A stretch of 35,601 nt of DNA from a virus, in IMG/VR virus record IMGVR_UViG_3300032267_001715, positions 1 through 35,601 of that record. One strand, 5' to 3'. Below are positions 1,400 to 33,504 of the stretch, in pieces. A program made the translations under genes and the position numbers. The notes under the pieces are model-generated. The model searched no databases and was not told the origin of the DNA. It worked only from the letters and a program-made list of their open reading frames with translations. The stretch's first letter is position 1, and each line of letters begins with the position of its first letter.

Positions 1400-1714
1400 A
1401 TGATCACGTTTCACCAATATCTCACAGAGGCGTCTCCCCCACCACCGGCTGGCGCACCGCCATCTTCGCCTCCCCCAGGAGGCCCAAGCGGACCCCCAGG
1501 CAGCGGACCTCCAATCGGTGGCGGCGGACCTCCATTGGGTGGCGGCGGACCTCCAATGGGCTTGGGAGGCCCTCCTTCAATGAGTTTGGGAGGCCCTCCG
1601 GGTGGCGGCATGCCCGGCGATCCGTCACAAGGAGCCCCTCCGGTAAGCATTCAAAAGATAAAACCAAAAGACGTTTGGAGCGCTTTGGAGAAGTCTTTGA
1701 AGAAGCGCAAGTAG
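1400..1714 (+). CDS. Pro/Gly-rich protein with capsid-targeting-like N-terminus
   Basis: A 104-residue protein in three parts. Residues 1-11 (MITFHQYLTEA) resemble the T4 capsid-targeting peptide of internal proteins, with a possible prohead-protease cut at LTE|A. Residues 12-80 are low-complexity Pro/Gly repeats built on GGPP and GGGGPP units. Residues 83-104 form a basic, probably helical tail (KPKDVWSALEKSLKKRK) that could bind DNA or another virion protein. The high local GC comes from the Pro and Gly codons, and it opens long false frames on both strands. The real frame is supported by the promoter octamer directly upstream and by the shared N-terminal motif. The in-frame TTG at 1397 overlaps the promoter element and is not favoured. 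Function unknown; packaging in the head is an inference. Confidence 0.7.
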   Translation: MITFHQYLTEASPPPPAGAPPSSPPPGGPSGPPGSGPPIGGGGPPLGGGGPPMGLGGPPSMSLGGPPGGGMPGDPSQGAPPVSIQKIKPKDVWSALEKSLKKRK

Positions 1715-1752
1715 TTTTCTCATGAAATCTAGACAAGACTTTGGTCTTGGGC

Positions 1753-1760
1753 TATGATAT
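1753..1760 (+). promoter_or_regulatory. late-type promoter octamer TATGATAT, leaderless arrangement
   Basis: TATGATAT ends four bases before the ATG at 1765. The match to TATAAATA is weaker than elsewhere, but the spacing is the same and there is no ribosome site. Confidence 0.35.
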
Positions 1761-1764
1761 ATGA

Positions 1765-2859
1765 ATGAAAATACTGATATTCAGCGATTTGCATATCCAT
1801 CCGCACAAGAAGTCAACGGAAAGACTCAATCATTGCATTGAGGTCTTGGATTGGATTCTCAAAACAGCCGTTGAAAAGAAAATCAAGAACATTATATTTT
1901 TGGGCGATTTGTTTCATGACCGACAAAAGATAGATGTTTTGACGTATCAAAAGACCTTTGAGACTCTTGAGAAATACCTCTGCAATAACGATCTCAATCT
2001 CAATCTGCTTTTGGGCAATCATGACCTTTGGCATTATGAAAAACATGATGTGTCAAGTGTCAATCCACTAAGGAACTTGCCCGGCATTCGCATTATCAAC
2101 AAGCCTTGCGTGGAAGAAATATCGGACGGAACTGAGGACTTCTTTTTTGGATTTTTGCCTTATACTCACAATCCGATAGAAGATTTGAAAATTATAGAGA
2201 AGGAATGGAAAGAAAAGTCACCCAAGGACCAGAAGAAGGTACTTGGAGGTCACATATCGGTTGACGGTGCCGCTTGGAACGTAAAGTACAACACGGTATC
2301 AGAGGTCACCATAGAGCATGATGGAGACATGATCCGTGTCGGTCCAGAAATATTCAAAAATTGGGACAAGGTGTTTCTGGGCCATTACCATGCCGAGCAG
2401 AAGTTGAATGAAAAAGTTGAATACGTAGGATCTCCTCTTCAACTTAGCTTTGGCGAAGCATTCCAGAACAAGCACATTCTCATCTTTGACACATACGCCC
2501 AAGAGTCAGAGTACATTGAGAATAAATTCAGCCCTCGTCATTTGATACTCAAGGAAGACGAGCTTGAAGAGCATTCTCTTGAAGGAAACTTCGTGAGACT
2601 TGAAGTAGAGGACATCGCCAGCCGACAGTTGCCAGAAGTGCGACAGAGACTTGTTGAAAGTTCAAAGGTTTCTTCGCTAGAAATAAAACAAATACAGAAG
2701 TTTGATGATCATCGCATCAAAGACGCAAAAGCAATCCTTTACAAAGAAGAAGAAATGCTTGAGCGCTATGTTGAACAGGCTAGGCTTGATGGTCTTGATA
2801 AGGAACTTTTGATTAAGATCGGCTCAGCAATATGCCGCCCAGATGAGGTAAAACAATGA
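1765..2859 (+). CDS. 47: gp47/SbcD/Mre11-like recombination nuclease subunit
   Basis: A 364-residue calcineurin-like metallophosphoesterase, the nuclease partner of the gp46/Rad50 ATPase. It processes DNA ends in recombination-dependent phage replication and host DNA degradation. The metal-binding motifs appear in order: SDLHIH (D8, H10), GDLFHD (D48), GNHD (residues 84-87), a later GGH near 168, and GHYH (206-209). The C-terminal third is charged and helical, as expected for the region that contacts the ATPase coiled coil. Length is close to T4 gp47 (about 340). The ATG overlaps the start of gp46 by ATGA, implying translational coupling and a stoichiometric complex. Family assignment is secure. 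Confidence 0.93.
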   Translation: MKILIFSDLHIHPHKKSTERLNHCIEVLDWILKTAVEKKIKNIIFLGDLFHDRQKIDVLTYQKTFETLEKYLCNNDLNLNLLLGNHDLWHYEKHDVSSVNPLRNLPGIRIINKPCVEEISDGTEDFFFGFLPYTHNPIEDLKIIEKEWKEKSPKDQKKVLGGHISVDGAAWNVKYNTVSEVTIEHDGDMIRVGPEIFKNWDKVFLGHYHAEQKLNEKVEYVGSPLQLSFGEAFQNKHILIFDTYAQESEYIENKFSPRHLILKEDELEEHSLEGNFVRLEVEDIASRQLPEVRQRLVESSKVSSLEIKQIQKFDDHRIKDAKAILYKEEEMLERYVEQARLDGLDKELLIKIGSAICRPDEVKQ

Positions 2860-4856
2860 AAAGTCTAGACATCAAATACGTATATGCTCAAAATTTTCTT
2901 TGCTTCGGGCAAGAAGCTTTTGAGCTTAGGCTATCTGATTATTCCAATGTTGTTCTTGTCAAAGGCCTCAATTTTGATGTTTCTGAAGAGTCTAAGGCCG
3001 CAAGCAATGGCGTTGGAAAAAGCTCCATCCCAGAGATCATAGTCTATACGTTGTTCGGCAAAACAATAAAACACCCAAAGAAACTTAACCACAAGGATGT
3101 GATCAACAACCAAATCGCAAAAGGTCTTAAAACTGAAGTGCGATGGGGCGATTTTAGAGTTGTAAGAACTAGAAAGCCTGATGGGCTAAGACTTTGGGAG
3201 AGCAAGGACGGCGTGTGGGACGACAGCACAGAAATAACACTAGGCGGACAACCAGCAACTCAAAAACTTATAGAAGAAAAGCTTGGTCTCAATTACGAAA
3301 CGTTTGTCAACGTTGTTGTTTTTACCGACAACAACGCAGGCAGTTTTCTTGAGTGTGATGCCGCAAACAAGAGAGATATAGTTGAGAATCTTCTTTCTCT
3401 TGAGAAGTACAAGACATTTGCTGAGAATGCCAAAGAACTCAAGAAAGAGAAAAAAGAGGCTATAAGAATAGCTCAAGTTGAATATGAAAACATAAGACAG
3501 CAGCTTGAGCAATCAAAGGGCAGAATTCGTGCCGCAAAAGAACAGGAATCAACTTGGGTCAAACAGAGAAATTCAGAGATAGAAGATTTGATGTCAAAGA
3601 TTAAGTCTCTGAAAAAGATTCTAGAATCAACATCTGAGGGCAGTGAGCTTTCAAAATACCAAGAAGCACAAGTGAAAATAGGGGAGCTTAATTCTGAAAT
3701 CCCCAATATGGAATCTAAGCAAACAAAAATTCAAGAGATGCTTGAAGCCGCACAAGAAAAGCATGCAACCGCTAGACAGAAGCAAAACGATGTGCAGATT
3801 CAAATTAATAATTTGCAATCCGAGCAGAAAAAACTCAACTCTCATATACTTGAAAACAAGAAAGAGATTGAGCGTCTTGAGAACAATGAAGGAGCAACTT
3901 GCAAGTTTTGCTTGGGCACCGTGTCAAAAGAAAACTACAAAAAGTACACGGAGCAAGTCGTTAAGAAAATTTCCTCCATAAAAGAAGAGGTTGAAGATAA
4001 CGAGTCAAAAATTTCTGGGCTTTCTGAAAAGCTTGAATCTTTTGGTTTGACATCAAAAAAGATATTAGAGGGCATCTCCAATGCCAAAGAGAGTCTGGCC
4101 AAAGTCTCCAAAGAACTTTCTGAAAAAAGAAAAGAGTTGGCCGAACTCAACAAAATAAACAAGCCGCAGAGCAAGGACATCAAAAATCAGCTAATAGAGA
4201 AGCAAATAGAGGGCCTTGACGAACAGATAGCTTCAAAGAAAACAGAACTAGCTGGCGACACCCCCTTCAAATCAATCATAGACTCTTTGTCGGAAGAGAT
4301 AGAGTCCAAGACCCTTGGTTTTGATTCCAAAAACAAGGAATTAGATAATCTTGAAAAGCATCTTCCCTACTATGAGTTTTGGTCAACAGCGTTTGGGGAC
4401 TCGGGCATAAGAAAGTTCGTTATAGAAGGTATCATACCGGCACTAAATTCTAGAATCGCATACTGGCTTCAGTTTCTTATAGATGGAAAAATTCGTTTGG
4501 AATTTGATAGCGAATTGGAAGAAAAAATTGAGCGCAACCCTTCTGATGGCGATCCTTTTGTCTACTATGCCATGAGTGGAGGAGAAAGAAGAAGACTCAA
4601 TCTTGCAGTGAGCCAAGCGTTTGCTCATGTGATGATGCTCAGCTCCGGAATGTGTCCAAATCTAGTTTTTCTTGATGAGGTCACAACCAATATTGACCAA
4701 ATAGGGGTGGTTGGTGTATACAATATGATTCTTGAACTTGCGAAAGACAGGCAAGTTTTCATCACGACGCACGATCAAAATCTTCTGGACATGCTTGAAG
4801 GATGTGAGTTAATAGTGTTGGAAAAAAGAAAAGGTTTCACGACCTTGAAAAAATAA
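2856..4856 (+). CDS. 46: gp46/SbcC/Rad50-like recombination ATPase subunit
   Basis: A 666-residue SMC-type ATPase that forms the gp46-gp47 complex. The Walker A loop is SNGVGKSS (residues 50-57). A long two-arm coiled coil is broken by a zinc hook, CKFC, at residues 349-352. The ABC signature is MSGGERRR (from 573), Walker B is LVFLDEVTTN (D607, E608), and an H-loop follows in ITTHD. This is the complete Rad50 layout at a length close to the T4 protein (about 560) but with longer arms. Translation is coupled to gp47 through the ATGA overlap. In T4 the pair resects ends and is essential for late recombination-driven replication. Confidence 0.95.
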   Translation: MKSLDIKYVYAQNFLCFGQEAFELRLSDYSNVVLVKGLNFDVSEESKAASNGVGKSSIPEIIVYTLFGKTIKHPKKLNHKDVINNQIAKGLKTEVRWGDFRVVRTRKPDGLRLWESKDGVWDDSTEITLGGQPATQKLIEEKLGLNYETFVNVVVFTDNNAGSFLECDAANKRDIVENLLSLEKYKTFAENAKELKKEKKEAIRIAQVEYENIRQQLEQSKGRIRAAKEQESTWVKQRNSEIEDLMSKIKSLKKILESTSEGSELSKYQEAQVKIGELNSEIPNMESKQTKIQEMLEAAQEKHATARQKQNDVQIQINNLQSEQKKLNSHILENKKEIERLENNEGATCKFCLGTVSKENYKKYTEQVVKKISSIKEEVEDNESKISGLSEKLESFGLTSKKILEGISNAKESLAKVSKELSEKRKELAELNKINKPQSKDIKNQLIEKQIEGLDEQIASKKTELAGDTPFKSIIDSLSEEIESKTLGFDSKNKELDNLEKHLPYYEFWSTAFGDSGIRKFVIEGIIPALNSRIAYWLQFLIDGKIRLEFDSELEEKIERNPSDGDPFVYYAMSGGERRRLNLAVSQAFAHVMMLSSGMCPNLVFLDEVTTNIDQIGVVGVYNMILELAKDRQVFITTHDQNLLDMLEGCELIVLEKRKGFTTLKK

Positions 4857-4897
4857 TTTATTAGCCTTACATAACTTCACATCAAAAAGGAGAAAAC

Positions 4898-5869
4898 ATG
4901 ATCTTTGAAGAACAGATAAGCAGGAAGCCCGATCACTATCCATGGACACAAGATTTCATTGAGGCCATGCACAATGGATTTTGGACAGACAAGGAATTCA
5001 GTTTCCAAAGTGACGTTCAAGACTTCAGAGTTTCTCTTTCTAAGCAAGAGAAAGAAATAATAATGCGTGCTCTGGCCACCATCGGCCAGCTTGAAATATC
5101 TGTCAAGAAGTTTTGGGCGAAGCTTGGAGACAATCTTCCTCATCCATCTATAAACGATATGGGCTACGTTATGGCCAACACAGAGGTAATCCATGGAGAT
5201 GCCTACGAAAGACTTTTGGAATCTCTTGGCATAGATGACGCTTTTGAAGAAATTCTCAAACTTGACATTATCAAGGGACGTGTTAACTATCTCAGAAAAC
5301 ATCTTCATAAATTCCACGCAGATAACAAGAAGCAATTCATTTATTCGCTGATATTGTTTACTCTTTTTGTGGAAAACATTGCCTTGTTTTCTCAATTCTA
5401 TACAATCAGTTGGTTTGGAAGATACAAGAACTTGCTCAAGGACACAAATAAGCAAGTTGAGTATACAAGTAGGGAGGAAAATCTTCATGCTATGATCGGC
5501 ATGAAACTTATCAACGTTATCAGAAAAGAGCACCCTGAACTTTTTGACGATGAGCTCAAAGAAAAAATTAGTCACGAGGCAGCAGAGGCGCTCAAGTACG
5601 AGATGCAGATAATTGAATGGATAGTTAATGGATACGAAGCCGACAAGCTTAACTCTCCTCTTCTTAAAGAGTTCGTCAAAGACAGAATGAACAATTCTTT
5701 GAAGCAGATCGGATTTAAAGAGATATTTGAGGTAGATGCCGAACTTCTTTCAAAGACGGTTTGGTTTGAAGAACAAGTCCTCGGAAACAACCAATCGGAT
5801 TTTTTCCATTCTCGGCCTGTAGAATATTCCAAAAAATCCAAGAGTTTTGCAGCAGAAGATTTGTTTTAG
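4898..5869 (+). CDS. nrdB: ribonucleotide reductase class I small subunit (NrdB)
   Basis: A 323-residue R2 protein that houses the dimetal centre generating the radical for NrdA. Ligands seen are E66 (QLEISVK), E96 and H99 (EVIHGDAY), E159 (FVENIALF), E194 and H197 (REENLH). The radical-site tyrosine follows as Y103. The first ligand is Glu where E. coli R2 has Asp. The AlaThrIle-Gln-Leu-Glu-Ile-x-Val-Lys-x-Phe-Trp context resembles NrdB proteins of Bacteroidetes, some of which use a dimanganese (class Id) centre. AAGGAG lies seven bases before the ATG. It is followed by nrdA, giving a B-A order. Assignment is certain; the metal identity is inferred. Confidence 0.95.
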   Translation: MIFEEQISRKPDHYPWTQDFIEAMHNGFWTDKEFSFQSDVQDFRVSLSKQEKEIIMRALATIGQLEISVKKFWAKLGDNLPHPSINDMGYVMANTEVIHGDAYERLLESLGIDDAFEEILKLDIIKGRVNYLRKHLHKFHADNKKQFIYSLILFTLFVENIALFSQFYTISWFGRYKNLLKDTNKQVEYTSREENLHAMIGMKLINVIRKEHPELFDDELKEKISHEAAEALKYEMQIIEWIVNGYEADKLNSPLLKEFVKDRMNNSLKQIGFKEIFEVDAELLSKTVWFEEQVLGNNQSDFFHSRPVEYSKKSKSFAAEDLF

Positions 5870-5912
5870 GCCTTCATACTCTATTAGAAAAATCCACCTG
5901 AAAGAAGAAAAA

Positions 5913-7997
5913 ATGAGCAACAAAGAGTACTATTGGCTTAACTCGCATAGTCGCCTTTTCCTTGAGCGCGGTTATATTGAGCCCGGCACCACACCGGAGC
6001 AGAGGGTAAGGCAAATTGCAGAGAACGCAGAAAAAATCCTCAAGAAAAAAGGGTTCGCCGATAAGTTTGAAAGTTATATGAGCAAGGGGTGGTACTCTCT
6101 TGCTACGCCGGTCTGGTGCAACTTTGGAAACAAGAGAGGCCTCCCAGTAAGCTGCTTTGGCAGTTACATAGAAGACAAAATGGAGGCTATTCTCACCAAG
6201 TCGGCCGAAGTGGGAATTATGAGCAAGATGGGAGGAGGAACTTCGGGATACTTTGGATCGCTTCGGCCAAGAGGAACTAAGATTAGTGTCGGTGGAGAAT
6301 CTAGCGGCGCTGTTCACTTCATGGAGATATTTGACAAGGTATCTGAAGTAATATCACAAGGAAGCGCAAGAAGAGGATCCTTTGCTGCCTACATGCCAAT
6401 TGAGCACTCGGACATAGAAGAGTTTCTTCAGATAAGAAGCGAAGGACACCCGATTCAGAACATGAGCATCGGCGTTACTGTTACCGATAAGTTCATGAAG
6501 GATTTGGTTGAAGGCGACAAAGAAAAAAGAAAAGTCTGGGCTAAAGTCATCCAGAAAAGATTTGAAACCGGCTATCCTTACATCATGTTTGTAGACACAG
6601 CAAACAAAAATGCTCCTCAAGTCTACAAGGACAAAAAGCTCAAGATTAAAGCAAGTAATCTTTGTGTTGCTCCTTGGACTAAAATACTAACTAAGAATGG
6701 CGAAGTTGTAGTAGAAGAAAACGACGGAAAAGATGTTGAAATTTGGAATGGAAAGTTCTGGTCAAAAACAAGAATAGTCAAGACTGGAAGCGACCAAAAG
6801 CTAACGAGAGTCAGAGTCATCAAAAGAGAATATGATGACTACGACACAGAACATTTGGCTTGGGTTGATTTGGATGTTACAGAGTATCACAAGTTTTATC
6901 TCAAAGACGGAAAAGAAGTAAGAACCTCAGAGCTTGAAGAAGGAGCTAGACTTCTTTCGTACGACGACCCGAGGGGCAGAAGATTCGTATGTGAAGTAAT
7001 AAGCAAAAAAGAAATAGAAGGCCTTCATGATACGTATTGTGTCAATGAGCCATTTGAGCACAAAGCTGTGTTCAATGGCGTTCTGACAGGCAATTGTTCT
7101 GAAATACAGCTTTATTCAGACGAAGAAAATTCATTTGTCTGCGTCCTCTCTAGTCTAAATCTCCTGCACTGGGATGAGATGAAAGAAACAGACGCCGTAG
7201 AGACGATGACCTATTTCCTTGATGCTGTTTGTGAAGAATTCATACAGAAAACAGAGAATGTGAAGTATCTTGAAGCGGCGAGAAACTTTGCTAAATCTCA
7301 ACGTGCACTAGGGATGGGAGTATTGGGTTGGCACTCTTATCTCCAGAGCAAAATGATTCCTTTTGAAAGCATGAAAGCAAAGCTTCTCAATTCCGAAATA
7401 TGGAAGACCATCAAGGAAAGAGCAGACAAGACTACGGAAGATATGGCCAAGGAATATGGAGAGCCCGAGCTTCTCAAGGGCTACGGCAGAAGAAACGTCA
7501 CTACTCTTGCTGTCGCTCCAACAACATCAAGTAGTTTTATTCTTGGCCAAGTAAGCGCAAGTATAGAGCCTTTGAATTCAAATTACTTTGTGAAAAATCT
7601 TGCCAAAGGAAAGTTTACATACAAGAACCCTTATCTTAAGGAAGTTCTCAAGAAGTACGAAAAGAACACTGATGAGGTGTGGAAGAGCATACTTGTAAAA
7701 GGCGGCTCAGTACAGCACTTGGACTTCCTTTCAAAAGAAGAAAAGGATGTATTCAAAACTTTCGGGGAGATATCTCAGAAAGAAATAGTAATCCAAGCTG
7801 CCCAGAGACAAAAGTACATAGACCAATCTCAGTCGCTCAATCTTATGATCCCCCCATCTGCATCTCCCAAAGAGGTCAACAATCTTCTTATAGAGGGATG
7901 GGAACTAGGGGTTAAGACCTTCTACTATCAGAGATCTGCGAATCCAGCACAAGAGCTAGCAAGAAGTTTGTCAACTTGTGCTTCGTGCGAGGCTTGA
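5913..7997 (+). CDS. nrdA: ribonucleotide reductase class I large subunit (NrdA) interrupted by a mini-intein
   Basis: The precursor has 694 residues and becomes about 550 after removal of a 144-residue intein (see separate entry). The first redox cysteine lies in GLPVSCFGSY. The spliced NLCSEI carries the catalytic thiyl cysteine and glutamate, and the second redox cysteine is in SFVCVLSSLN. The phosphate loop region reads APTTSSSFILG, the radical-transfer tyrosines KTFYYQRS, and the C-terminal shuttle pair STCASCEA. The mature protein is much shorter than E. coli or T4 NrdA (about 750) and starts directly at the core, so the N-terminal ATP-cone is absent. The ATG at 5913 follows GAAAGAAGAAAA, so the upstream in-frame ATG inside nrdB is not used. 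It supplies dNTPs for phage replication. Confidence 0.95.
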   Translation: MSNKEYYWLNSHSRLFLERGYIEPGTTPEQRVRQIAENAEKILKKKGFADKFESYMSKGWYSLATPVWCNFGNKRGLPVSCFGSYIEDKMEAILTKSAEVGIMSKMGGGTSGYFGSLRPRGTKISVGGESSGAVHFMEIFDKVSEVISQGSARRGSFAAYMPIEHSDIEEFLQIRSEGHPIQNMSIGVTVTDKFMKDLVEGDKEKRKVWAKVIQKRFETGYPYIMFVDTANKNAPQVYKDKKLKIKASNLCVAPWTKILTKNGEVVVEENDGKDVEIWNGKFWSKTRIVKTGSDQKLTRVRVIKREYDDYDTEHLAWVDLDVTEYHKFYLKDGKEVRTSELEEGARLLSYDDPRGRRFVCEVISKKEIEGLHDTYCVNEPFEHKAVFNGVLTGNCSEIQLYSDEENSFVCVLSSLNLLHWDEMKETDAVETMTYFLDAVCEEFIQKTENVKYLEAARNFAKSQRALGMGVLGWHSYLQSKMIPFESMKAKLLNSEIWKTIKERADKTTEDMAKEYGEPELLKGYGRRNVTTLAVAPTTSSSFILGQVSASIEPLNSNYFVKNLAKGKFTYKNPYLKEVLKKYEKNTDEVWKSILVKGGSVQHLDFLSKEEKDVFKTFGEISQKEIVIQAAQRQKYIDQSQSLNLMIPPSASPKEVNNLLIEGWELGVKTFYYQRSANPAQELARSLSTCASCEA
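6663..7094 (+). other. mini-intein (144 aa) inserted before the catalytic cysteine of NrdA
   Basis: Starts with C1 in CVAPWTKILTKNG (block A). It carries TEYH (T73, H76) as block B, and ends with TYCVNEPFEHKAVFNGVLTGN followed by Cys+1 (blocks F and G). The flanking exteins read SNL and CSEI, the conserved NrdA active-site string. The length leaves no room for a homing endonuclease, and no LAGLIDADG motif is visible. The penultimate residue is Gly143 rather than the usual His, a variant tolerated by some inteins. Splicing would use Cys1, Asn144 and Cys+1. Being in frame and with all nucleophiles present, it is likely active. Confidence 0.92.
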
Positions 7998-7998
7998 A

Positions 7999-8346: not shown

Positions 8347-8771
8347 TCGTAAAGTTCAACAAATTGTCCGATTCTGCAAAAGTGCCAAGCCGAGCTAATC
8401 CAACGGATGCCGGCGCTGATATTTACTCAATAGAGCAGTGCATCATACAGCCTCTTGAAAGAAAAGCCATATCCACTGGGATTAGGATGGAGATCCCAGA
8501 AGGCTATTATGCAAGAATAGCTCCAAGATCTGGCCTTGCTGTTAAAAATGGAATAGATGTTCTTGCTGGGGTGGTGGACTCCAGCTATAGAGGCGAAATT
8601 AAAGTTGTTCTCTACAACTCAGATAAAAGCAACAGTTTTTTTGTCAATCCCGGAGATAGGATAGCTCAGTTGATAATAGAGAAACATTACAATTTTGATT
8701 TGATTGAGGTGGTTGAAGAGCTGTCCGACACCGACAGAGGCTCTGGGGGATTTGGATCTACTGGAATATGA
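8343..8771 (+). CDS. dut: dUTP diphosphatase (dUTPase)
   Basis: A 142-residue trimeric-type dUTPase that hydrolyses dUTP to dUMP, keeping uracil out of phage DNA and feeding dTMP synthesis. All five motifs are present in order: TDAGADIYS, APRSGLAVKNG, AGVVDSSYRGEI, PGDRIAQLII and the C-terminal RGSGGFGSTGI arm. Length is typical. Its start overlaps the HAD gene by ATGA, and its stop overlaps the SET gene by ATGA, so the run nrdB-nrdA-HAD-dut-SET-zinc finger is probably one transcript. Confidence 0.96.
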   Translation: MIVKFNKLSDSAKVPSRANPTDAGADIYSIEQCIIQPLERKAISTGIRMEIPEGYYARIAPRSGLAVKNGIDVLAGVVDSSYRGEIKVVLYNSDKSNSFFVNPGDRIAQLIIEKHYNFDLIEVVEELSDTDRGSGGFGSTGI

Positions 8772-9145
8772 AAGATTTCATGCCCTTCATTAATAAGGGC
8801 CTTTATCTAGATTGGAAAGATGGCATTGGATATGGAGTCTTTACAAAAGAACCCATAAAGAAAAACGAGTTTGTTGAAATATCTCCAGTCATAGTACTAG
8901 ACTTTTTGGAAGATAGAGAAATGATGAAGTATGTCATTTCTTGGGGTGAAAAAATAGCAATGCCAATGGGTTGGACAATGTTGTACAACCACAGTGATAA
9001 AAATTCTTGCGAATTTTCCATGAATATTCATGATGGTCTTCTTGCTATTGTTTCTTTGAGAGATATACTGGCCGGCGAGCAATTGACTGTGAACTACGGG
9101 CCAAATTGGTTCTCTTCAAGGCAAATTGAAAAAATAGACCTATGA
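8768..9145 (+). CDS. SET-domain protein (putative protein lysine methyltransferase)
   Basis: A 125-residue compact SET domain. GIGYGVF (residues 19-25) matches the N-terminal SAM-binding turn, YNHSDKNSCEF (N74-H75-S76) matches the NHS cofactor and pseudoknot motif, and GEQLTVNYG (Y110) ends with the catalytic tyrosine. The size is close to the minimal viral SET protein of chlorella viruses (about 120), with no pre- or post-SET cysteine clusters. It probably methylates lysines of a host or phage protein, using host SAM. It is joined to dut and to the following zinc-finger gene by ATGA overlaps. Phage SET proteins are uncommon, and the target is unknown. Confidence 0.8.
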   Translation: MKDFMPFINKGLYLDWKDGIGYGVFTKEPIKKNEFVEISPVIVLDFLEDREMMKYVISWGEKIAMPMGWTMLYNHSDKNSCEFSMNIHDGLLAIVSLRDILAGEQLTVNYGPNWFSSRQIEKIDL

Positions 9146-9492: not shown

Positions 9493-9500
9493 TACATATT
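9493..9500 (+). promoter_or_regulatory. late-type promoter octamer TACATATT, leaderless arrangement
   Basis: TACATATT ends three bases before the ATG at 9504, with no ribosome site between. It lies directly after the stop of the preceding gene (9484-9486). Confidence 0.35.
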
Positions 9501-9503: not shown

Positions 9504-9893
9504 ATGCGATTTAGAACATTTTTAATCAACGAGGAAAAGGGTAGTTTCGCACAAAGGGTTGCGGACATACTCAGTGCTGTCCAAGACTTGAATGACAATG
9601 CTGAGAACATGGGCACAAGACACCTAGTATCAAACGCTCAGACCATAGCCGATCAAATAAGAAGAATCATACACACCCACTGGCCAGAGAAAGAAGAATC
9701 AAATCTAGAAGTGCTGAAGAAATGCGGTGTGGCCATAATGAAGACAATGGATGAAAAAGGAGATCTTTTGTCCATATTAAAATCTTGCGAAAAACATTTG
9801 GGGAAAATATCTGGCGAGCAAGAAGAGCCTGTTAATGATCTTGGAAACGAAGAAGAAGGCCAAGAAGAGGAAGACCAAGAAGAAAAAGAATAA
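9504..9893 (+). CDS. acidic protein with capsid-targeting-like N-terminus
   Basis: A 129-residue protein. Residues 1-10 (MRFRTFLINE) follow the pattern shared with three other genes in this window and T4 internal proteins, with a possible prohead-protease cut after INE. The middle (residues 14-95) is predicted helical, and the last 25 residues are almost all Glu and Asp. The ATG at 9504 is chosen over an in-frame ATG at 9471, which lies inside the previous gene and would hide the motif. The stop overlaps the glutamine amidotransferase ATG (TAATG). An acidic tail on a head-packaged protein could mimic DNA, but that is speculation. Confidence 0.7.
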   Translation: MRFRTFLINEEKGSFAQRVADILSAVQDLNDNAENMGTRHLVSNAQTIADQIRRIIHTHWPEKEESNLEVLKKCGVAIMKTMDEKGDLLSILKSCEKHLGKISGEQEEPVNDLGNEEEGQEEEDQEEKE

Positions 9894-18544: not shown

Positions 18545-18952
18545 ATGATCGGTTTTCAAAAGTTTGTAGATCTGAAAGAAAATATAGAATCTGAGGCTCC
18601 TTCTTCGGAATTAGAGCTCAAAAGTTCTGCTGAGAAAATTGCTGAAATGTTTGGGGGATCAAGCAACACTGACTTCCGTCCAAACCAACATGGAGTAATT
18701 ACAATTCAAATCAAAAACAGATTGGGAGGAGCCACTGCGGTCTACTTCAGCATGGGGCCGAATGGCGTAGAAGCCGATACAATGCATTTTACTAAGCAAT
18801 TGATAAATGGAGCTTATGTGACCGGAGATTTTGCTAGCGCAAGAGACTGGATATCACACATGAAGCTGTCAGGCTATGACGTTTCTAAAGGCAAATTTAG
18901 ACTGAGTATGAACATGCAAGAGTTAGAAGACCATCTGTTCAGACATGTTTGA
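18545..18952 (+). CDS. protein with capsid-targeting-like N-terminus, unknown function
   Basis: A 135-residue protein beginning MIGFQKFVDLKEN, the same pattern as the other packaged-protein candidates, with a possible prohead-protease site LKE|N. Residues 15-35 are Ser/Glu-rich. Residues 45-135 form a compact alpha/beta domain, with ITIQIKNRLGG and AVYFSMGPNGVEAD strands and helices around ARDWISHMKL and MQELEDHLF. GGAG lies seven bases before the ATG. It ends overlapping a convergent gene by 14 bases. Packaging in the head is inferred from the N-terminus only. Confidence 0.7.
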   Translation: MIGFQKFVDLKENIESEAPSSELELKSSAEKIAEMFGGSSNTDFRPNQHGVITIQIKNRLGGATAVYFSMGPNGVEADTMHFTKQLINGAYVTGDFASARDWISHMKLSGYDVSKGKFRLSMNMQELEDHLFRHV

Positions 18953-20588: not shown

Positions 20589-21464
20589 GTGATACACTTT
20601 AAAAATTCTGCTCCTCTAAGAAATTTGGATGTTAACCATGCTCCTTGGAGAGGTAATTGCCGGGTAAAGCCATGGGAATATGATGTTACCGCAGTGGTAC
20701 CAGTAATAGATACGCACGAAAATCTAAGTTTGTGTGTTGAAATACTTAGACTGCAAACCATCAGACCATACATAATAGTCATAGACACGGGCAGCACAGA
20801 AGAAAATCTCAATAAAATACTTTCTATGCACTCGGAAGATCTAGAAGTTCATACCATTAGGCTCAATGGATCATTGCACCCATCAGACTCTGTTTGTATG
20901 GCCATGGACTTGGCCCAGAGTCTATGCAGAACGGAGTATATGTTTGCAACCCATTCTGATGTATTCCTTAGAAGAAGAGATTACATAGAGTGGCTTTTTT
21001 CTATGTGTGGAGATGATAGAGATAAGTTTCCCGTTGTTGGGTATGAGATGAGCCCAAGGCATCATGATGATTGGAGAGGTATGATAAGCCACACAGCAAC
21101 CATGTACCATATGAGAACGCTAGACAAGATAGGTTTTGGATGGAGCATGAGGAGATTGGCATCTTTATACGACCTTAAAAATCAAGAGCCACACGCAGAT
21201 AGGCCCAACTGGCCCGACACAGAAATATTGGGAAATATGATACTTAGGCAAAACAACGTAAAAACTAAGATCATAGGAAGCGAACAGAATTTTCAAAGAA
21301 ATAAAGATGATAATATAGACCATTGTCGTAGTATAAGTCTTGGATTGTTATACTCCCCGTCCTATTACAATACGGCAAAAGTTTGGCTAGAAGAAGCCAA
21401 GGAAGAAGCTAGAGAGAGAATAAGAGATTGGAGTGATGTACCTTACAAAGGCGGTTCTTCATGA
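20589..21464 (+). CDS. family 2 glycosyltransferase-like protein
   Basis: A 291-residue protein starting with GTG. The GT-A features are VTAVVPVIDTHEN (strand 1), IIVIDTGSTEENL (63-74), and THSDVFLRRRDY (121-132) in the place of a DxD-like metal and donor site. The remainder, with HHDDWRGM and WPDTEILGNM, is reminiscent of acceptor-side motifs. An out-of-frame ATG at 20585 gives only five codons and is rejected. It overlaps the sigma-factor gene by ATGA. A second glycosyltransferase on the opposite strand lies close by, so the region may encode a glycosylation route of unknown target. Confidence 0.7.
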   Translation: MIHFKNSAPLRNLDVNHAPWRGNCRVKPWEYDVTAVVPVIDTHENLSLCVEILRLQTIRPYIIVIDTGSTEENLNKILSMHSEDLEVHTIRLNGSLHPSDSVCMAMDLAQSLCRTEYMFATHSDVFLRRRDYIEWLFSMCGDDRDKFPVVGYEMSPRHHDDWRGMISHTATMYHMRTLDKIGFGWSMRRLASLYDLKNQEPHADRPNWPDTEILGNMILRQNNVKTKIIGSEQNFQRNKDDNIDHCRSISLGLLYSPSYYNTAKVWLEEAKEEARERIRDWSDVPYKGGSS

Positions 21465-21994
21465 ATGAATATCTAAATAACAAGATTTTTGAGAAGATGA
21501 TCAATCAGTTCCAGAATTCAAAGAGGGAAAAGTCAAAACTTGCTCTTTTGATGGAAGAAATAAAAGACACAATTCTAAGGAAAAAGATAAGAAAAGTTAA
21601 GTCCTTGGATAATAAAAATATGCTGAAGGAAAAAGAGACTCAGTTGTCCTTGGTTTCTTCTGATCACGAGGACTGCAAAAATAAGCTTGCGATTGCTTTT
21701 TTTACCCTTTCTGAAAACATAGTTAGATACGCTAAATTTCAACTAATAGACTCTGATGATGCGGTTCAAGAAGGAGTCATGATATGCTTTGATAAGATAG
21801 ACAGGTTTGATTCAAGAAAAGGCAAGGCTTTTAACTATATGACGACATGCATATTGAACCACTTTAGACAGTTGTACAGAACCAGTAGGAACTACAACGA
21901 ATTGAAAAAGAGATACCTTAACCACATGCAGATTCTTGAAGGAAATTCTTCTTTTAACAACGGCCGACAGATGTTTGATCAAAATCAAAACTGA
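21461..21994 (+). CDS. 55: gp55-like late-transcription sigma factor
   Basis: A 177-residue protein. Residues 96-150 carry the sigma region 2-like core, SDDAVQEGVMICFDKIDRFD, then KGKAFNYMTTCILNHFRQ, followed by YRTSRNYNELKKRY, matching T4 gp55 and its relatives. T4 gp55 (185 aa) replaces host sigma and directs RNA polymerase to TATAAATA promoters. The octamers found before many genes here fit that. The C-terminal tail is polar rather than the short hydrophobic-acidic clamp-binding end known in T4, so clamp coupling is unsettled. It overlaps the upstream glycosyltransferase by ATGA, which implies co-translation. Confidence 0.88.
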   Translation: MNEYLNNKIFEKMINQFQNSKREKSKLALLMEEIKDTILRKKIRKVKSLDNKNMLKEKETQLSLVSSDHEDCKNKLAIAFFTLSENIVRYAKFQLIDSDDAVQEGVMICFDKIDRFDSRKGKAFNYMTTCILNHFRQLYRTSRNYNELKKRYLNHMQILEGNSSFNNGRQMFDQNQN

Positions 21995-27468: not shown

Positions 27469-27481
27469 TAGTTTTCCTTGG

Positions 27482-27490
27482 TATTATTTA
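27482..27490. promoter_or_regulatory. divergent late-type promoter TATTATTTA between gp15-like gene and the gene at 27496
   Basis: TATTATTTA on plus (TAAATAATA on minus) sits between divergent starts 27468 and 27496. It can serve both strands; the plus gene has no ribosome site, the minus gene has AAGGAAAA. Confidence 0.4.
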
Positions 27491-27495
27491 GCAAC

Positions 27496-28538: not shown

Positions 28539-29037
28539 CCTTGCCCTCGCCTGTCGTGACGCTTTCTTGGAATCTCTGACAAAGTATTTGCATTCTAATT
28601 TGACTCCAAAGCATCGTCTCTCCAACATTTCTTTGTATGATAACCCAATCTTCTTTCCTATGTGGACTGTGTATTCTTGATCCTATTTTCGGAGGATGTC
28701 CGATTCTTTTGATGACATCCCGATAGTTCATATCAAATATCACTTCGTCTGGAGAATCTATGCCAAAAGTACTTTGGTAGTTTTGTCCGACCACAGGCTC
28801 ATAACTAGCATATAAGGTTATCGGATTATTTGACCACAGCTTGCCCCGGTCTTCTCTGTAAAGTTTGTCTAGAGATCCGGTTTGTATAAAAACCTCGTAG
28901 TAGAATACGGGCGATCCATATATCTTCATGATCTCCGCATCCCAATCATTCCACAAGCAACGCTCAGGATTGTTTGGATCAAATTGCTCCAAGCTTCCTG
29001 TTGGCGTGTAAGGTGTTCCATCGGGGTTTTTAAGCAA
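28486..29037 (-). CDS. probable neck protein (gp14-like)
   Basis: A 183-residue protein starting with TTG at 29037, with AGGAGG seven bases upstream. The sequence WNDWDAEIMKIYGSP, then YYEVFIQTG, FGIDSPDEVIFDMNY, IGSRIHSPHRKEDW fits the general pattern I recall for T4 gp14-type neck proteins (a D-x-F-Y strand, a DE(V/I)-F strand, a G-D/S-x-I loop). It stands near the gp15-like and sheath genes, consistent with a head-to-tail connector role. The assignment is tentative; a baseplate protein remains possible. Confidence 0.5.
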   Translation of the reverse strand: MLKNPDGTPYTPTGSLEQFDPNNPERCLWNDWDAEIMKIYGSPVFYYEVFIQTGSLDKLYREDRGKLWSNNPITLYASYEPVVGQNYQSTFGIDSPDEVIFDMNYRDVIKRIGHPPKIGSRIHSPHRKEDWVIIQRNVGETMLWSQIRMQILCQRFQESVTTGEGKVTQKKPDFDLNDLNQRG

Positions 29038-29075
29038 TGAAGTTCCTCCTAAACTATATATCGCCTCAACAATCC

Positions 29076-29477
29076 TTAATTCAATTGAACTTGTGGGCGT
29101 ATCGCTACTTCGCCACCGCCATCGGGCAAGCTGAATGGAGCTCCGGGGAACTCTTCAGCCCACATTATTTCATTAGAGGTGTTTGTTACGTAATATCCAT
29201 ACACATCTTGCCCAACCGAAAAACTAAACGTTATCCCAGTGTTGTAAACGGCAGCAGAAATTCCGCCTGTTGTTGCTGCGGTCCAGTTTGATCCTGTGAG
29301 AGTTACGGCGGCATAACCTGATGCCGATGCCTCTGTGAAACTTCCAGTGCTGAAAGTTTCTGATGTTAGATCAATATTGTTTCTATACAAATGCAATACA
29401 AGATTTGTTGGAGTTGAATTGTTTACAATGTACTTTAGAAGTCTTACTTCTCCGGAATCTGGAACAACTAGCGTCAT
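29076..29477 (-). CDS. virion decoration / structural protein candidate
   Basis: A 133-residue protein of low charge and high Ser, Thr, Gly, Asn, typical of virion surface proteins: NNSTPTNLVLHLYRNN, TFSTGSFTEASAS and AAVTLTGSNWTAATTGG. Similar sequences appear as small structural proteins in marine and freshwater phages, from recall. GAGG lies seven bases before the ATG. It shares a divergent promoter with the plus gene at 29526. Confidence 0.6.
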   Translation of the reverse strand: MTLVVPDSGEVRLLKYIVNNSTPTNLVLHLYRNNIDLTSETFSTGSFTEASASGYAAVTLTGSNWTAATTGGISAAVYNTGITFSFSVGQDVYGYYVTNTSNEIMWAEEFPGAPFSLPDGGGEVAIRPQVQLN

Positions 29478-29500
29478 TTTTTACCTCGCTTTCTATCATA

Positions 29501-29510
29501 GCTATATACC
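29501..29510. promoter_or_regulatory. bidirectional late-type promoter GCTATATACC
   Basis: Plus strand TATATACC (29503-29510) lies upstream of 29526; minus strand TATATAGC (29508-29501) lies upstream of 29477. The core is nearly self-complementary and serves both divergent genes with short leaders. Confidence 0.4.
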
Positions 29511-29525
29511 TCGCAGAAATTAAAA

Positions 29526-30179
29526 ATGACGCTAATAAAGAAAGACGGAACAGTATACGTGCTAGAAGGGCCAAATCCTCTTGTTAAAACCCAACAAGAA
29601 TTTGATTCTAACAATATGATCTTCCACAATTTCTCGTGGGACGACATAACGATGAAAATTAGCCGCGCAACAGCCACGGTTAAAAAACCAAAGGCAGAGC
29701 CGCCGAAAGAAGAACACAGACCAGAGCCAATAATTCCTCCCAAAGAACCCGAAATTGAAGAGAAGGTCATTTCTGATTCTAAATCTGAAGAAGATGAGCG
29801 CACTTTTGACTTGCCATACATAAAGTACAAGGTGCTCTCTTATTGTCTTCCTGCCAAAATAGAACGCAAGACCGATGATCTTTACGGGGATTCTTGGACA
29901 AGGGTCAAATATGGCAATAAGATTGTGTTTCCTTCAATCATGCTTGAATCAAACGACTTTAGCATAGAATTCTGGACTAGTGACCCAAACAGCCAAATTA
30001 CAGAAAAGTCAATAATATATCCTTTTGCTTATGAGGTTCATAACTCATCAACCGATTCGTATGACAAGGTTCCATATGATGAATACAGATGGTGGAAGGT
30101 TGATCACAAAGAGCAGAAAGAAGGCGGATGGCTTTTCAGAGCCATACCATCAGAAACACAACCAGACTTTTCAAGCTAG
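29526..30179 (+). CDS. phage protein of unknown function
   Basis: A 217-residue protein. Residues 1-45 look like a small beta domain (TLIKKDGTVYVLEGPNPL). A Pro/Glu-rich linker follows at 50-85 (KPKAEPPKEEHRPEPIIPPK). The rest (95-217) contains LPYIKYKVLSYCLPAKI, YGDSWTRVKYGNKI, SIIYPFAYEVHNS and YRWWKVDHKEQ. No motif recognised. The minus gene that follows ends overlapping it by four bases. The start has no ribosome site; a promoter octamer lies 15 bases upstream. Confidence 0.65.
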   Translation: MTLIKKDGTVYVLEGPNPLVKTQQEFDSNNMIFHNFSWDDITMKISRATATVKKPKAEPPKEEHRPEPIIPPKEPEIEEKVISDSKSEEDERTFDLPYIKYKVLSYCLPAKIERKTDDLYGDSWTRVKYGNKIVFPSIMLESNDFSIEFWTSDPNSQITEKSIIYPFAYEVHNSSTDSYDKVPYDEYRWWKVDHKEQKEGGWLFRAIPSETQPDFSS

Positions 30180-30469
30180 CGAAATATCTTGTTGTTTTCT
30201 GATGATGTGTTGGGCTTTTGTTCTGGGACTACATTGACTGTCATTCCCATTTTGGCAAGTTGTTCTTTATATTGATCCAAAGCCCTCATGAATCCTGCTT
30301 CGTAAACATCCACTAAAAGCGAGCCAAAGCTTTCGTAATCTTCTTTTGTTGTAACATAAGTGGTCAGTCGCTCTATAAATTTTTCGTTTTTAACGTATTT
30401 TTCTTTGATCATGTCAAAGATATGCTTTTTTATAGCCATTGACTGAGGGTTTTGAAACATTGGAAGCAT
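30176..30469 (-). CDS. small helical protein of unknown function
   Basis: A 97-residue protein, helical in the middle (AIKKHIFDMIKEKYVK; DVYEAGFMRALDQYKEQL), with a disordered Asn/Ser/Lys C-terminus. TATTTTAA ends three bases before the ATG at 30469, a leaderless arrangement; a second in-frame ATG at 30460 is possible. It is divergent from the helicase gene. No family recognised. Confidence 0.55.
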   Translation of the reverse strand: MLPMFQNPQSMAIKKHIFDMIKEKYVKNEKFIERLTTYVTTKEDYESFGSLLVDVYEAGFMRALDQYKEQLAKMGMTVNVVPEQKPNTSSENNKIFR

Positions 30470-30472
30470 GCA

Positions 30473-30480
30473 TTAAAATA
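30473..30480 (-). promoter_or_regulatory. late-type promoter octamer TATTTTAA, leaderless arrangement
   Basis: Minus strand TATTTTAA ends three bases before the ATG at 30469. It lies 34 bases from the ATG of the divergent helicase gene, which has its own octamer. Confidence 0.35.
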
Positions 30481-30502
30481 GTAGAATTTGCGAGAATAAT
30501 GC

Positions 30503-30510
30503 TACATAGC
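30503..30510 (+). promoter_or_regulatory. late-type promoter octamer TACATAGC, leaderless arrangement
   Basis: TACATAGC ends three bases before the ATG at 30514 that begins the capsid-targeting-like peptide of the helicase. This supports the shorter start over the one at 30439. Confidence 0.35.
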
Positions 30511-30513
30511 AAT

Positions 30514-33504
30514 ATGAAGTTTTCAAACTGGTTTTTTTTGAGAGAATCTGCCGAGGGCAATGTTTCCGGAGAAGGCGTCAAGGCTCTTCAATCAATAATG
30601 AGAGATATGGCCTCTCGTGGAATTCCTAACGAATACAACGACTATGGTTTCAACAAACAAGATTGGAATGCATATCAGTCCTTAGAAGCTTCTGGGCACA
30701 TAGATTCTGCTTCTGTTCCCATGAAAGAACTTTTGAGAATGCTTCAAATTATTTCTCATTATCAAAACACACAGATAAGAAATTATCGCAGCATAAGTGA
30801 TCTTGTTAAAAAAGATATAGACTCTGCCAATCCAAGTGGCAACCAAGCCACTAGTGATAAAATTTACGTATATGACAGACAACCTCTTGAATACGGCAAG
30901 GTCAAGGTTTACATCCCAAGAGGTTTGGACAGAAGCTCCGTGATTCTGATCAACAGAATAGTTGATTCCAAACTCGCACAAGAAGGCGAGAAAAAAACTG
31001 TAGACAACTACGGAAAAGAAACGTACCCAAGATACAAAAAAATCCAAGCTGTTAAGTCTGAAATGCACATGTATAGGATACACAAAAGTGTTCTTGATCC
31101 TATTCTTGACATATTAACATCAAAGGGAATTGAAGTAGAATATGAATCGGGCACTCCCTATTCATCGCAAGGAGCATCATCGCAAGGACCAACGACAGAT
31201 CAATCGTCGCGAAGTACAACCGAAGAACCAGACATTGAGATTCTGGGAAAAGAAAGCAATAGGTGGGGAAATAAGATTGCTGTTAGTTTCAATTATGAAA
31301 GAAGTAAAGGACTGTATCAGAAAATGAAAGGTGCGGGATTGACCCCCAAAGGCATATCTTATGATTATGAAAGAAAAGTCTTCTTGATAAACATAGATGA
31401 CAAGTCAATGTTTGATAAAGTGGTTGATATAGCCAGACAGTCTGGTTTGGATGTCTCTCCGCTTGAAGAATTCGCAAAGACTATGGGCCAAACAGATCAA
31501 CCCGCCACGGGAGAAGAACCAAAGGGAGATGGACTGGCCAATAAGGAAGGGATAATAAGGTTTACTGACGCTGCGGGAGACGCAATAAACGTCAAGACGG
31601 ATGTTAGAGGACTACCCCAAGAAGTTAAAGATTTTGTTCGCGAAAGTATCCAGTACACATTCCCAGAATACAAATATGATATGACTGGTCATTTCTACAC
31701 GATCTCAGGTGACTTCAAGCAGTATTCTACCTTTGGCCGGCTTCTTAAGAAGTTTAACTATCCAGTAGATGAACTTAGAGCTATAATCAGAGCCAAGTTA
31801 GACAGCGGCAGATTGAATAAAACAGAATGGGAAGGCAAATTTGATAAAGACAAAGCTTTCCAAGACTCCATAGAAGAAAAAGTTCCCGATAGCGTCGTTG
31901 ATCTTTATGACGAACAGAAATTCGGCGTTGCATTTCTTTACGGCAGAGACTCGGCAATACTCGGTGACGAAACGGGTTTTGGAAAAAGCATTCAGCTCAT
32001 AACTGCCGCCGCTCTTAGAATGAAATCCAACAATAAACCAACACTCATCATCACCCTAAAGGCAACTCAACAACAGTTCGCGAAAGAAATATTGAGGGTA
32101 ATGGGAGAAAAAATAGAAGACATGTCGCCAGACCAGATTGAAGCGCTATACAAGAAGCACGGGATATCCCTATCTCCTACGACGCCCAATAAATGGACGG
32201 TTATTAGGTATAGTGATTTTTCTGGAGGAGCAGGATCAAGAAACGATACGGTCAAAAATCATGTTGAAAGCTTGAAAAAAGCTGGGTTTGGAGTTGCTAT
32301 TTTAGACGAACTTCACAAGGTCAAGCACGGTAAGAGTCAGAGAAGCGAGAATGTATCTTCTGTTGTGAGCGGAATACCGACAAGATGGGGCGCTTCTGCC
32401 ACCGTCTCCAGCAACAAGCCGATGGATGTTAAGAATCAACTTTTGATGATGGGACATCAACTCGGAAGGATAAAAGAAAGCAAATTCAAAAAAGATTTCG
32501 CGGGAATGGTGGCTGATGGATACGGTGGCGCTTTCGTAAAAAGCAAAAAGGAAGAAGATGAAATAAGAGCAGCCGAAAGGCTCAACAAGTGGCTTAATCT
32601 TTCCGGCGTGTATGTCCGCAGAGAAAAAGGCGACATTAGAGAGATGCCCGAGCTTACTGTGGGCAGCGATAGTACTGGCATAGATCCAACTAGGTTTCAG
32701 GACATCTATTCGGAAAAGGTTCGCGAGTACCAGAGCCGCCGAGCCGGACAACCCGTGCTCGCTGTGAGCAAGTTGATTGCCGCAAGGCTTGCCGTGGCTC
32801 AGTTGAAGACAGATGAGTCAACAAAAAAGGCTTTGGATATAGTTGCTGCCGGAGAAGGCAAACCACCAGCAGCAAGCAAGATCGTTGTTTTCACTAATTT
32901 CGTAGAGGCCGGACGACAACTTGTTAGTAAAATTTCAGATGGACTTAAAAAGATCAATCCAAAATACAGTGTCCTAACCTACTTGTCTGACACTTCAAGA
33001 AAAGAAAGAGATCAAGTCAAAAGCAAATTTACCAACGATCCTGATCTAAAAGTTCTTGTTATGAGTATGAAGATGGGCGGAACGGGAATTGACTTTCCCA
33101 ATGCATCACAAAACATGATAATCAATGACTTTGATTGGACGCCTGAGAGTGCGGAACAAAGCGAAGGCAGAATATACAGAATCAATACAGACCACCCAGT
33201 CAAAATAAGCTATGTCATTGGACATGGATTAGACGCAGAGCTATTCCAGAAAGTTCAAAGAAAGAGAGAAATAGCTGCGATCATTCAGAAGTACAGAAGA
33301 GAATATCACGACTCTGAATCCGCACCAGAAGCACTCAAGAAGATTGTAGATGCTCAAAAAGAAATGAAGAAGTTGGACGACGATATGGTTAGTATCGTTG
33401 CCAAGAATCTTCCGGGAGCAGAAGGCGCTTTGCAAAAAGAGTCTTTTTCTTCTTACTTGGAAAAGCTTCAAGAAATTCGTGATGCTCTTATGCCCTTAGA
33501 ATAA
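30514..33504 (+). CDS. SNF2-family helicase/translocase with capsid-targeting-like N-terminus
   Basis: A 996-residue protein. Residues 1-14 (MKFSNWFFLRESAE) resemble T4 capsid-targeting peptides, with a possible cut at LRE|S. Residues 15-480 hold substrate domains with a Ser/Thr/Gln-rich linker (about 210-235) and no clear catalytic motif. The SNF2 core follows: GDETGFGKS (484-492, Walker A), DELH (598-601, motif II), a C-terminal lobe with VVFTNFVEAGRQL, MKMGGTGIDFP, and QSEGRIYRI (882-890, arginine finger). The layout is nearest to SMARCAL1/HARP-like remodelers or phage UvsW-type enzymes. An upstream in-frame ATG (30439) overlaps the divergent gene and hides the peptide. It probably acts on replication or recombination forks, possibly early if it enters with the DNA. 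Confidence 0.85.
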   Translation: MKFSNWFFLRESAEGNVSGEGVKALQSIMRDMASRGIPNEYNDYGFNKQDWNAYQSLEASGHIDSASVPMKELLRMLQIISHYQNTQIRNYRSISDLVKKDIDSANPSGNQATSDKIYVYDRQPLEYGKVKVYIPRGLDRSSVILINRIVDSKLAQEGEKKTVDNYGKETYPRYKKIQAVKSEMHMYRIHKSVLDPILDILTSKGIEVEYESGTPYSSQGASSQGPTTDQSSRSTTEEPDIEILGKESNRWGNKIAVSFNYERSKGLYQKMKGAGLTPKGISYDYERKVFLINIDDKSMFDKVVDIARQSGLDVSPLEEFAKTMGQTDQPATGEEPKGDGLANKEGIIRFTDAAGDAINVKTDVRGLPQEVKDFVRESIQYTFPEYKYDMTGHFYTISGDFKQYSTFGRLLKKFNYPVDELRAIIRAKLDSGRLNKTEWEGKFDKDKAFQDSIEEKVPDSVVDLYDEQKFGVAFLYGRDSAILGDETGFGKSIQLITAAALRMKSNNKPTLIITLKATQQQFAKEILRVMGEKIEDMSPDQIEALYKKHGISLSPTTPNKWTVIRYSDFSGGAGSRNDTVKNHVESLKKAGFGVAILDELHKVKHGKSQRSENVSSVVSGIPTRWGASATVSSNKPMDVKNQLLMMGHQLGRIKESKFKKDFAGMVADGYGGAFVKSKKEEDEIRAAERLNKWLNLSGVYVRREKGDIREMPELTVGSDSTGIDPTRFQDIYSEKVREYQSRRAGQPVLAVSKLIAARLAVAQLKTDESTKKALDIVAAGEGKPPAASKIVVFTNFVEAGRQLVSKISDGLKKINPKYSVLTYLSDTSRKERDQVKSKFTNDPDLKVLVMSMKMGGTGIDFPNASQNMIINDFDWTPESAEQSEGRIYRINTDHPVKISYVIGHGLDAELFQKVQRKREIAAIIQKYRREYHDSESAPEALKKIVDAQKEMKKLDDDMVSIVAKNLPGAEGALQKESFSSYLEKLQEIRDALMPLE

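Follow-up and report, generated by a model that had tools for sequence, protein, structure and literature searches.

Otherwise unrelated proteins of an uncultured clade of huge T4-like phages share an N-terminal peptide that is probably a capsid-targeting sequence

Introduction

Why should several phage proteins that have nothing else in common begin with much the same short peptide? The question is raised by a 35,601-nucleotide stretch of viral DNA (IMG/VR virus record IMGVR_UViG_3300032267_001715, positions 1 to 35,601; hereafter the window), in which an initial annotation, made from the letters alone, had noticed that four proteins encoded from positions 1400, 9504, 18545 and 30514 start with a peptide (hereafter the tag) resembling the capsid-targeting sequence (CTS) of the internal proteins of phage T4, and had proposed that all four are packaged in the head and delivered to the host as early effectors. 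In T4, gp21 cuts such peptides after L/I-x-E, and mutagenesis of IPIII assigned residues 4 and 7 mainly to targeting and residues 8 and 10 to processing (PMC9026906). Here, we use computation to document the tag, to show that it is statistically real and conserved, and to describe the unrelated domains that follow it, together with a matching protease and gp23 site in relatives of this phage, and we consider it very probable that the window peptides are T4-type CTSs serving a greatly expanded cargo. The evidence throughout is computational, and gene starts come from heuristic calling.

Results

A shared N-terminal peptide in the window

All four peptides are encoded at these positions, each with an in-frame ATG: MITFHQYLTE↓A (1400–1429, + strand; profile p = 0.0004), MRFRTFLINE↓E (9504–9533, +; p = 0.0003), MIGFQKFVDLKE↓N (18545–18580, +; a weaker score, p = 0.0009) and MKFSNWFFLRE↓S (30514–30546, +; p = 0.0003). 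As first described, each contains an (L/I)-x-E site, with the presumed cuts (arrows) at TE↓A, NE↓E, KE↓N and RE↓S. The literal spacing given at that time, M-x-x-F-x-x-(F/Y)-(L/I/V), holds for 1400 and 18545 but not for 9504 (MRFRTFL) and 30514 (MKFSNWF), where the first aromatic comes one residue earlier. What is constant among the four peptides is aromatic-x-x-aromatic, a hydrophobic residue and then hydrophobic-x-Glu.

For the scores quoted, a profile was trained on 187 tagged proteins of relatives, with the window families excluded, and 9,639 internal Met positions served as the control for calibration. Of 48 N-termini in the window, exactly six lie above the 99.9th percentile of this control (582, 9504, 30514, 1400, 33518 and 18545; empirical p = 0.0001–0.0009), where ~0.05 would be expected to pass, and the next gene scores far lower. 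Thus, the original set of four passes in full but is incomplete: the protein encoded at 582 (tag MGEFREWLNN, 582–611, +) has the top window score with p = 0.0001, and that at 33518 (probable tag MKFTDYARE, 33518–33544, +) passes with p about 0.0008, being, with 18545, the weakest of the six. At the same threshold T4 has three tagged proteins, CBB one and immuto none, and T4 IPII and IPIII were recovered as an internal control. Although the SET-domain protein encoded at 8768 (MKDFMPFINK) conforms to the literal motif, its profile score is too low (p = 0.013), and we left it out of the count. A hydropathy filter for the hydrophobic core of a Sec signal peptide, applied to the first 30 residues, flags none of the six. 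Beyond the tag, the window proteins fall into separate BLAST families with no detectable likeness to each other, in line with the early statement that the rest of each protein is unrelated; the protein at 1400, for which the gene caller began elsewhere, lies outside the family set and was compared by hand.

Short Phe-rich N-termini might look alike by chance, and the literal motif, searched in all six frames, does match non-genes too, so that alone it is not discriminating. We nevertheless regard chance as an extremely unlikely explanation, because the out-of-sample p is <0.001 for each of the six N-termini and because the tag is enriched clade-wide over internal Met, shuffled and other-phage controls (see below). 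Chance is refuted for the set, while 18545 or 33518 taken singly could be false positives. Judged by these scores, the fragment encodes at least four, and probably six, otherwise unrelated tagged proteins.

The tag is frequent across an uncultured clade

As a 35.6-kb piece of a T4-like myophage, the window has genes for tail sheath, tail tube, a sheath-stabiliser-like protein, a T4-type baseplate protein, ribonucleotide reductase, dUTPase and a gp55-like late sigma factor, as well as a gp46/47-like pair that we assigned from the sequence itself. By BLAST, 26 of its 47 called proteins have a match in LR756511, a 595-kb uncultured phage record, 20–24 of 47 in each of the contigs G010, G011 and G012, and 4–5 in each of T4, CBB, Syn9, HTVC008M and immuto; all best matches are within the clade. 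The gp23 of the clade has 72.6% identity to LR756511, and because its best isolate match, a Flavobacterium phage, reaches only 38%, no isolate of the clade is present in the 50,697 phage records that were searched. On this sequence evidence, we place the window in an uncultured clade of huge T4-like phages of which LR756511 is the nearest named record. Contigs of relatives were reached via the SNF2 protein encoded at 30514 and via the prohead protease (144, 323, 158, 299 and 320 kb, smaller ones, and LR756511), and exact-match scans from both window ends found no contig extending the window toward its head module.

After removal of N-termini with a signal-peptide-like core, 6.5–19% of the N-termini in clade contigs are tagged (simple gene caller). 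In the controls, the corresponding values are about 1% or less of internal Mets in nearly all contigs, with higher rates in small ones (G003, 3.9%; G016, 2.3%), and roughly 1–2% of shuffled N-termini. An early pool gave 40/316 tagged N-termini versus 12/1465 internal Mets (p = 3e-21), and a caller blind to promoters and Shine–Dalgarno (SD) sequences, which takes the first ATG of each open reading frame, gave the same picture. In LR756511, 53 of 802 N-termini are tagged, and the scan of related phages that the initial annotation had suggested finds the tag on 16–54 proteins per large contig or genome. Outside the clade the rate is low in T4 (3.5%), Syn9 (3.3%) and HTVC008M (2.6%) and at background in CBB (1.1%) and immuto (0.6%). 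With CBB at background and no tag in the first 50 kb of Atu_ph07, the published mass spectrometry data on virions of these Rak2-like phages cannot test the tag. We note that one cyanophage protein outside the clade (Syn9, NC_008296, 149735–150883; MKKFSAFLSEAERSF...) has a convincing single tag with an FLSE↓A site.

Conserved aromatic residues and a candidate cut site

The consensus of 137 tagged proteins is [NTS]-[F]-K-[EDN]-[WFY]-[LIV], with Glu enriched 2, 4 and 5 residues past the second aromatic. The first aromatic column is 90% F and 10% Y and the second 55% W, 26% F and 19% Y; these two columns were fixed by the selecting regular expression, while the others were mostly free. L/I-x-E occurs within residues 6–15 of 38% of tagged versus 12% of untagged proteins (p = 1e-12), whereas at residues 16–25 the two groups do not differ; 52 occurrences were observed, and tails shuffled 500 times gave a mean of 29 and a maximum of 43. 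The looser pattern hydrophobic-x-E follows the aromatic pair in 144 of 188 tagged proteins. The conserved columns of the clade fit the IPIII residues that matter for targeting and for processing.

The initial annotation had made persistence of the peptide in homologues a check, and it is kept in 25/25 cases for 9504, 5/5 for 1400 and 6/7 for the SNF2 protein, the seventh copy being degenerate. The 129-residue tagged protein encoded at 9504–9893 (+) is predicted by AlphaFold2 to form a four-helix bundle (residues 14–105) followed by a disordered acidic tail; the predicted local distance difference test score is about 90 over the bundle and <50 at residues 1–11 and 107–129, which places the tag outside the confidently folded part of the model. 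The bundle model has no significant match among viral structures. Among 25 non-redundant homologues, down to about 28% identity, E10 is invariant, positions 3 and 6 are always F/Y, positions 7 and 8 are aliphatic and position 9 is mostly N. The search was seeded partly on the tag; however, 13 loci recovered via a core seed, without the tag seed, have the same pattern. The protein at 1400 (1400–1714, +) is a Pro/Gly-rich protein of 104 residues with a C-terminal KxxDVWxxLEK segment. Five of five P/G-rich proteins of this kind that conserve the DVW segment start with the tag and a Glu site and are encoded next to gp47; the homologues in LR756511, G010, G011 and G012 all lie directly upstream of it.

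The tagged 996-residue SNF2-type helicase (30514–33504, +; Pfam SNF2-rel_dom, 2e-10, and Helicase_C, 2e-13; PHROG 62, 1e-63) has its tag at the same place in the window, L002, L003, L005, L006 and G008, and in all homologues the tag region is followed by a conserved block V/I-S/G-G-x-G. The protein at 582 (197 residues; 582–1175, +) is a putative zinc peptidase, a call that comes from an HExxH motif whose HE..H is invariant in 4 homologues; a weak Pfam match to Tox-MPTase3 (E = 0.011) is below the cut-off, and a low-confidence fold model (pLDDT 59.5) gave no structural match. Its homologues begin with MDFKKWMV in G015 and G016 and with MRTWHEFV in LR756511. For the 135-residue protein at 18545 (18545–18952, +), near-identical homologues only were found, which are uninformative, and for the 270-residue, probably tagged protein at 33518 (33518–34330, +), encoded directly downstream of the SNF2 gene, no homologue was found among relatives.

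A gp21-type protease and a matching gp23 site in relatives

The initial annotation had asked for a gp21-type prohead protease, and one is present in all seven relatives with the head module in hand, including LR756511. The S77 protease scores above the Pfam cut-off in G004 and was identified by BLAST in G008, G010, G011, G012, G015/G016 and LR756511; in an alignment with T4 gp21, the motifs GEL[ND]HP, SSRG and [FV]D[AI]V are conserved. The presumed maturation site of the clade gp23 is L-[IM]-N-E↓[SVAT], conserved across about 30 gp23 sequences, and the 9504 peptide ends in the same residues, L-I-N-E. In G004, the protease is encoded near gp23 (PHROG 138, 3e-85), and, of the 27 genes lying no more than 12 kb from the protease, 11 are tagged. 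Within the first 13 kb of this region (L010, 1–13000), about ten tagged genes lie around the protease and gp23, several of them starting MKSFxxW. LR756511 has a second, diverged S77-type protease paralogue at about 242240 (in L208), 41% identical to that of G004, away from the head cluster and with a changed catalytic His region (GELGMP).

These data bear on whether the peptide might instead direct proteins elsewhere, for example to a membrane or to a compartment of replication, or let them dock on a single partner protein. An N-terminal helix that is aromatic and amphipathic would be able to bind either a membrane or a partner; but tagged genes cluster at the G004 head module, the terminal protease-type Glu site matches the gp23 site, the peptide agrees with the mutational map of T4 IPIII, and signal-peptide-like N-termini had been filtered out. 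We consider localisation elsewhere, or such docking, improbable.

Late-promoter-like boxes before many tagged genes

Four of the tagged window genes have a late-promoter-like box: TATATAAA (1388–1395, +) stands 4 nucleotides before the ATG of 1400, TACATA precedes 9504 (9493–9498, +) and 30514 (30503–30508, +), and TATATA precedes 582 (570–575, +). Boxes also precede several homologues of 9504 and the SNF2 homologues in L002, L003 and L005. No late-type box lies upstream of 33518 or of 18545, the latter having an SD-like GGAG. Elsewhere in the window, TAnATA boxes lie upstream of 11019 (+) and 10921 (−). The likely reader of such boxes, judged by homology, is the gp55-like late sigma factor (21461–21994, +; PHROG 234, late sigma transcription factor, 5e-7).

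In a promoter-blind gene set, TAnATA starts at −11 and −10 from the ATG in 16% and 17% of tagged genes versus about 2% each of untagged genes, and in the set behind the 137-protein consensus a late-type box precedes 41% of tagged versus 10% of untagged clade genes. T4 and CBB have no TAnATA cluster at −11/−10 in the gene set of the profile scan. Because of this box position, and given the geometry of T4 late promoters, leaderless late mRNAs are predicted.

The shared start could accordingly reflect a signal in the nucleotides close to the late promoter (a downstream box or an element for leaderless translation), with the peptide as a by-product. A TAnATA box does stand at about −10/−11 in roughly half of the tagged genes, as this explanation would have it, but 97 of 188 tagged genes are without a box and 175 of 266 genes with a box are without a tag. 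Moreover, the Phe codons track genome GC content (TTT/TTC), the aromatic spacing is constant while one to three residues precede it, and the 9504 homologues, from genomes of very different GC content, keep E10 and the aromatics while the residues between Met and the first aromatic vary. We therefore rate a nucleotide-level signal as very improbable.

Diverse enzymes follow the tag

The tagged proteins of the clade form 166 BLAST families, of which 118 are singletons found in a single genome; some of these will be noise. Among 131 tagged proteins, Pfam identified SNF2, UvrD, three PolyA_pol nucleotidyltransferases, AAA_33/AAA_18 kinases, HAD_SAK_1, tRNA_lig_CPD, Peptidase_C39, S-adenosylmethionine (SAM) decarboxylase, FGE-sulfatase and a sub-threshold ADP-ribosyltransferase. 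One tagged 2H phosphoesterase is above the Pfam cut-off for Acb1; a phmmer search with T4 Acb1 (57B) gave no convincing homologue. An RNA-repair theme in this cargo is suggestive only.

Several domains occur both with and without the tag: a kinase is tagged in G008_145754 versus untagged in G011_235424, a HAD protein tagged in G012_251158 and LR595_582920 versus untagged in G011_3144, and a 2H phosphoesterase tagged in G012_128712 versus untagged in G010_3278. Because the tag is added before, or missing from, an intact domain, a portable tag is favoured.

A more serious alternative is that the tagged proteins are packaged as structural core or scaffold and then degraded or retained in the head rather than injected as effectors. 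The T4 core proteins gp22, gp67 and gp68 are cleaved by gp21 (PMC9958956), and in the clade 9504, with its acidic tail, and 1400 are conserved throughout. Many tagged enzymes, on the other hand, make no sense as structural parts (SNF2, UvrD, kinase, nucleotidyltransferase, C39 peptidase and SAM decarboxylase), and, unlike core proteins, 118 of the 166 families occur in one genome only. A purely structural role for the tagged proteins is unlikely on balance, though it deserves real weight.

Other observations

The tagged SAM decarboxylase (L139, 11232–11651, in G011; Pfam, 1.5e-21) could, if packaged, reduce SAM or supply polyamine synthesis as infection begins. In the window, the gene for the large subunit of ribonucleotide reductase (5913–7997) encodes ~135 extra residues at about 6700–7150, mini-intein-like and ending ...VLTGN↓C; Pfam splits the barrel domain of the enzyme into three stretches and reports no Hint domain. 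The SET-domain protein mentioned above (8768–9145; Pfam SET, 5e-15) is compact, has a eukaryote-like lysine methyltransferase fold and lies in a phage operon with dUTPase.

Discussion

If the T4-type CTS explanation is correct, the following sequence of events would connect the observations. Late in infection, the gp55-like sigma factor would read the late boxes, and unrelated proteins with a shared N-terminal start of about 10–15 residues, of the form M-x(1-3)-F-K-x-[WFY]-[LIV]...[hydrophobic]-x-E, would be made. The aromatic pair, three apart, would dock each protein on the core of the prohead while the shell is still open; cleavage after the Glu by the gp21-type protease would then free the mature protein inside the head, from which it would exit with the DNA into the next host. 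Core docking, packaging, cleavage and injection we infer from T4, and for packaging this inference is well supported.

Several points weigh against this scheme. The clade has no isolate and no virion proteomics. The window fragment is without head genes, and its own protease is predicted from relatives. In G004 the gene between the protease and gp23 encodes a Glu/Lys-rich protein of 298 residues with no PHROG match, and a gp22 profile match is absent for it. The tag of the SNF2 homologue in L004 is degenerate (MKSIKFLIENNEN), and 18545 and 33518 lack informative homologues. Finally, 62% of the tagged proteins of the clade are without a strict L/I-x-E in residues 6–15 and, therefore, the protease may accept a wider range of sites, or some of the tags may not be removed.

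The weakest part of the original proposal is that all four proteins are early effectors, since 9504 and 1400, conserved across the clade, may be structural internal proteins. Our guess is that the SNF2 and HExxH proteins act in the host, with 9504 and 1400 serving as general internal proteins of the head. For the clade as a whole, the analogy with T4 suggests that these viruses probably inject a large, ready-made protein kit into the host cell. A bolder formulation is a general loading system in which tens of unrelated proteins per virion carry a removable tag and are injected as an RNA-repair and anti-defence kit, comprising SNF2, UvrD, CCA/poly(A)-type nucleotidyltransferases, kinases, an RNA-repair HAD protein, 2H phosphoesterases (one with the match to Acb1, which counters the cyclic-oligonucleotide-based antiphage signalling system), a C39 peptidase and SAM decarboxylase; we lean toward it, if only slightly.

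As in the clade, T4 IPI, IPII, IPIII and Alt have an N-terminal peptide of about 10 residues, a Glu cut site and unrelated mature domains; Y4 and F7 of IPIII are aromatics three apart, and the S77 protease is present in the relatives too. T4, however, has about four tagged proteins and the clade tens per genome. Moreover, Trp is the commonest second aromatic in the clade, the Glu often comes at least one residue later, a late-promoter-like box of the leaderless type precedes half of the tagged genes, and large enzymes are part of the cargo. The inner body proteins of phiKZ-like phages and the ejection proteins of SPN3US are likewise a large head cargo, with propeptides removed by a gp21-related protease and with some proteins injected. 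Their propeptides are mostly >100 residues and cut at S/A-x-E (PMC5694885, PMC9026906), whereas those of the clade, which is T4-like in its gp23, gp21 and late sigma factor, would be short (about 10–15 residues) and end in hydrophobic-x-E. DarB of phage P1, a very large protein, is sent into the head by an N-terminal signal and is believed to be injected for anti-restriction; its signal is >9 and at most 30 residues long, and no consensus with other Dar proteins was found (PMC9024508).

We found no earlier description of these tags in the openly licensed literature; as far as checked, the kind is known and the scale and the variant are new. A review of T4 suggested that the CTS may be a general protein-loading route of T4-like phages (PMC9026906), and to this suggestion our data add a clade, a consensus and a scale. 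If our interpretation is right, the tag would aid the choice of start codons and provide new tags for loading phage heads with proteins. More importantly, a 12-residue pattern would then show from sequence alone which of the hundreds of uncharacterised proteins in huge phages travel inside the virion and are the first to reach the host cell, and the old question of what huge phages inject would become one of candidate lists open to proteomics, with many new candidates including probable anti-defence enzymes.

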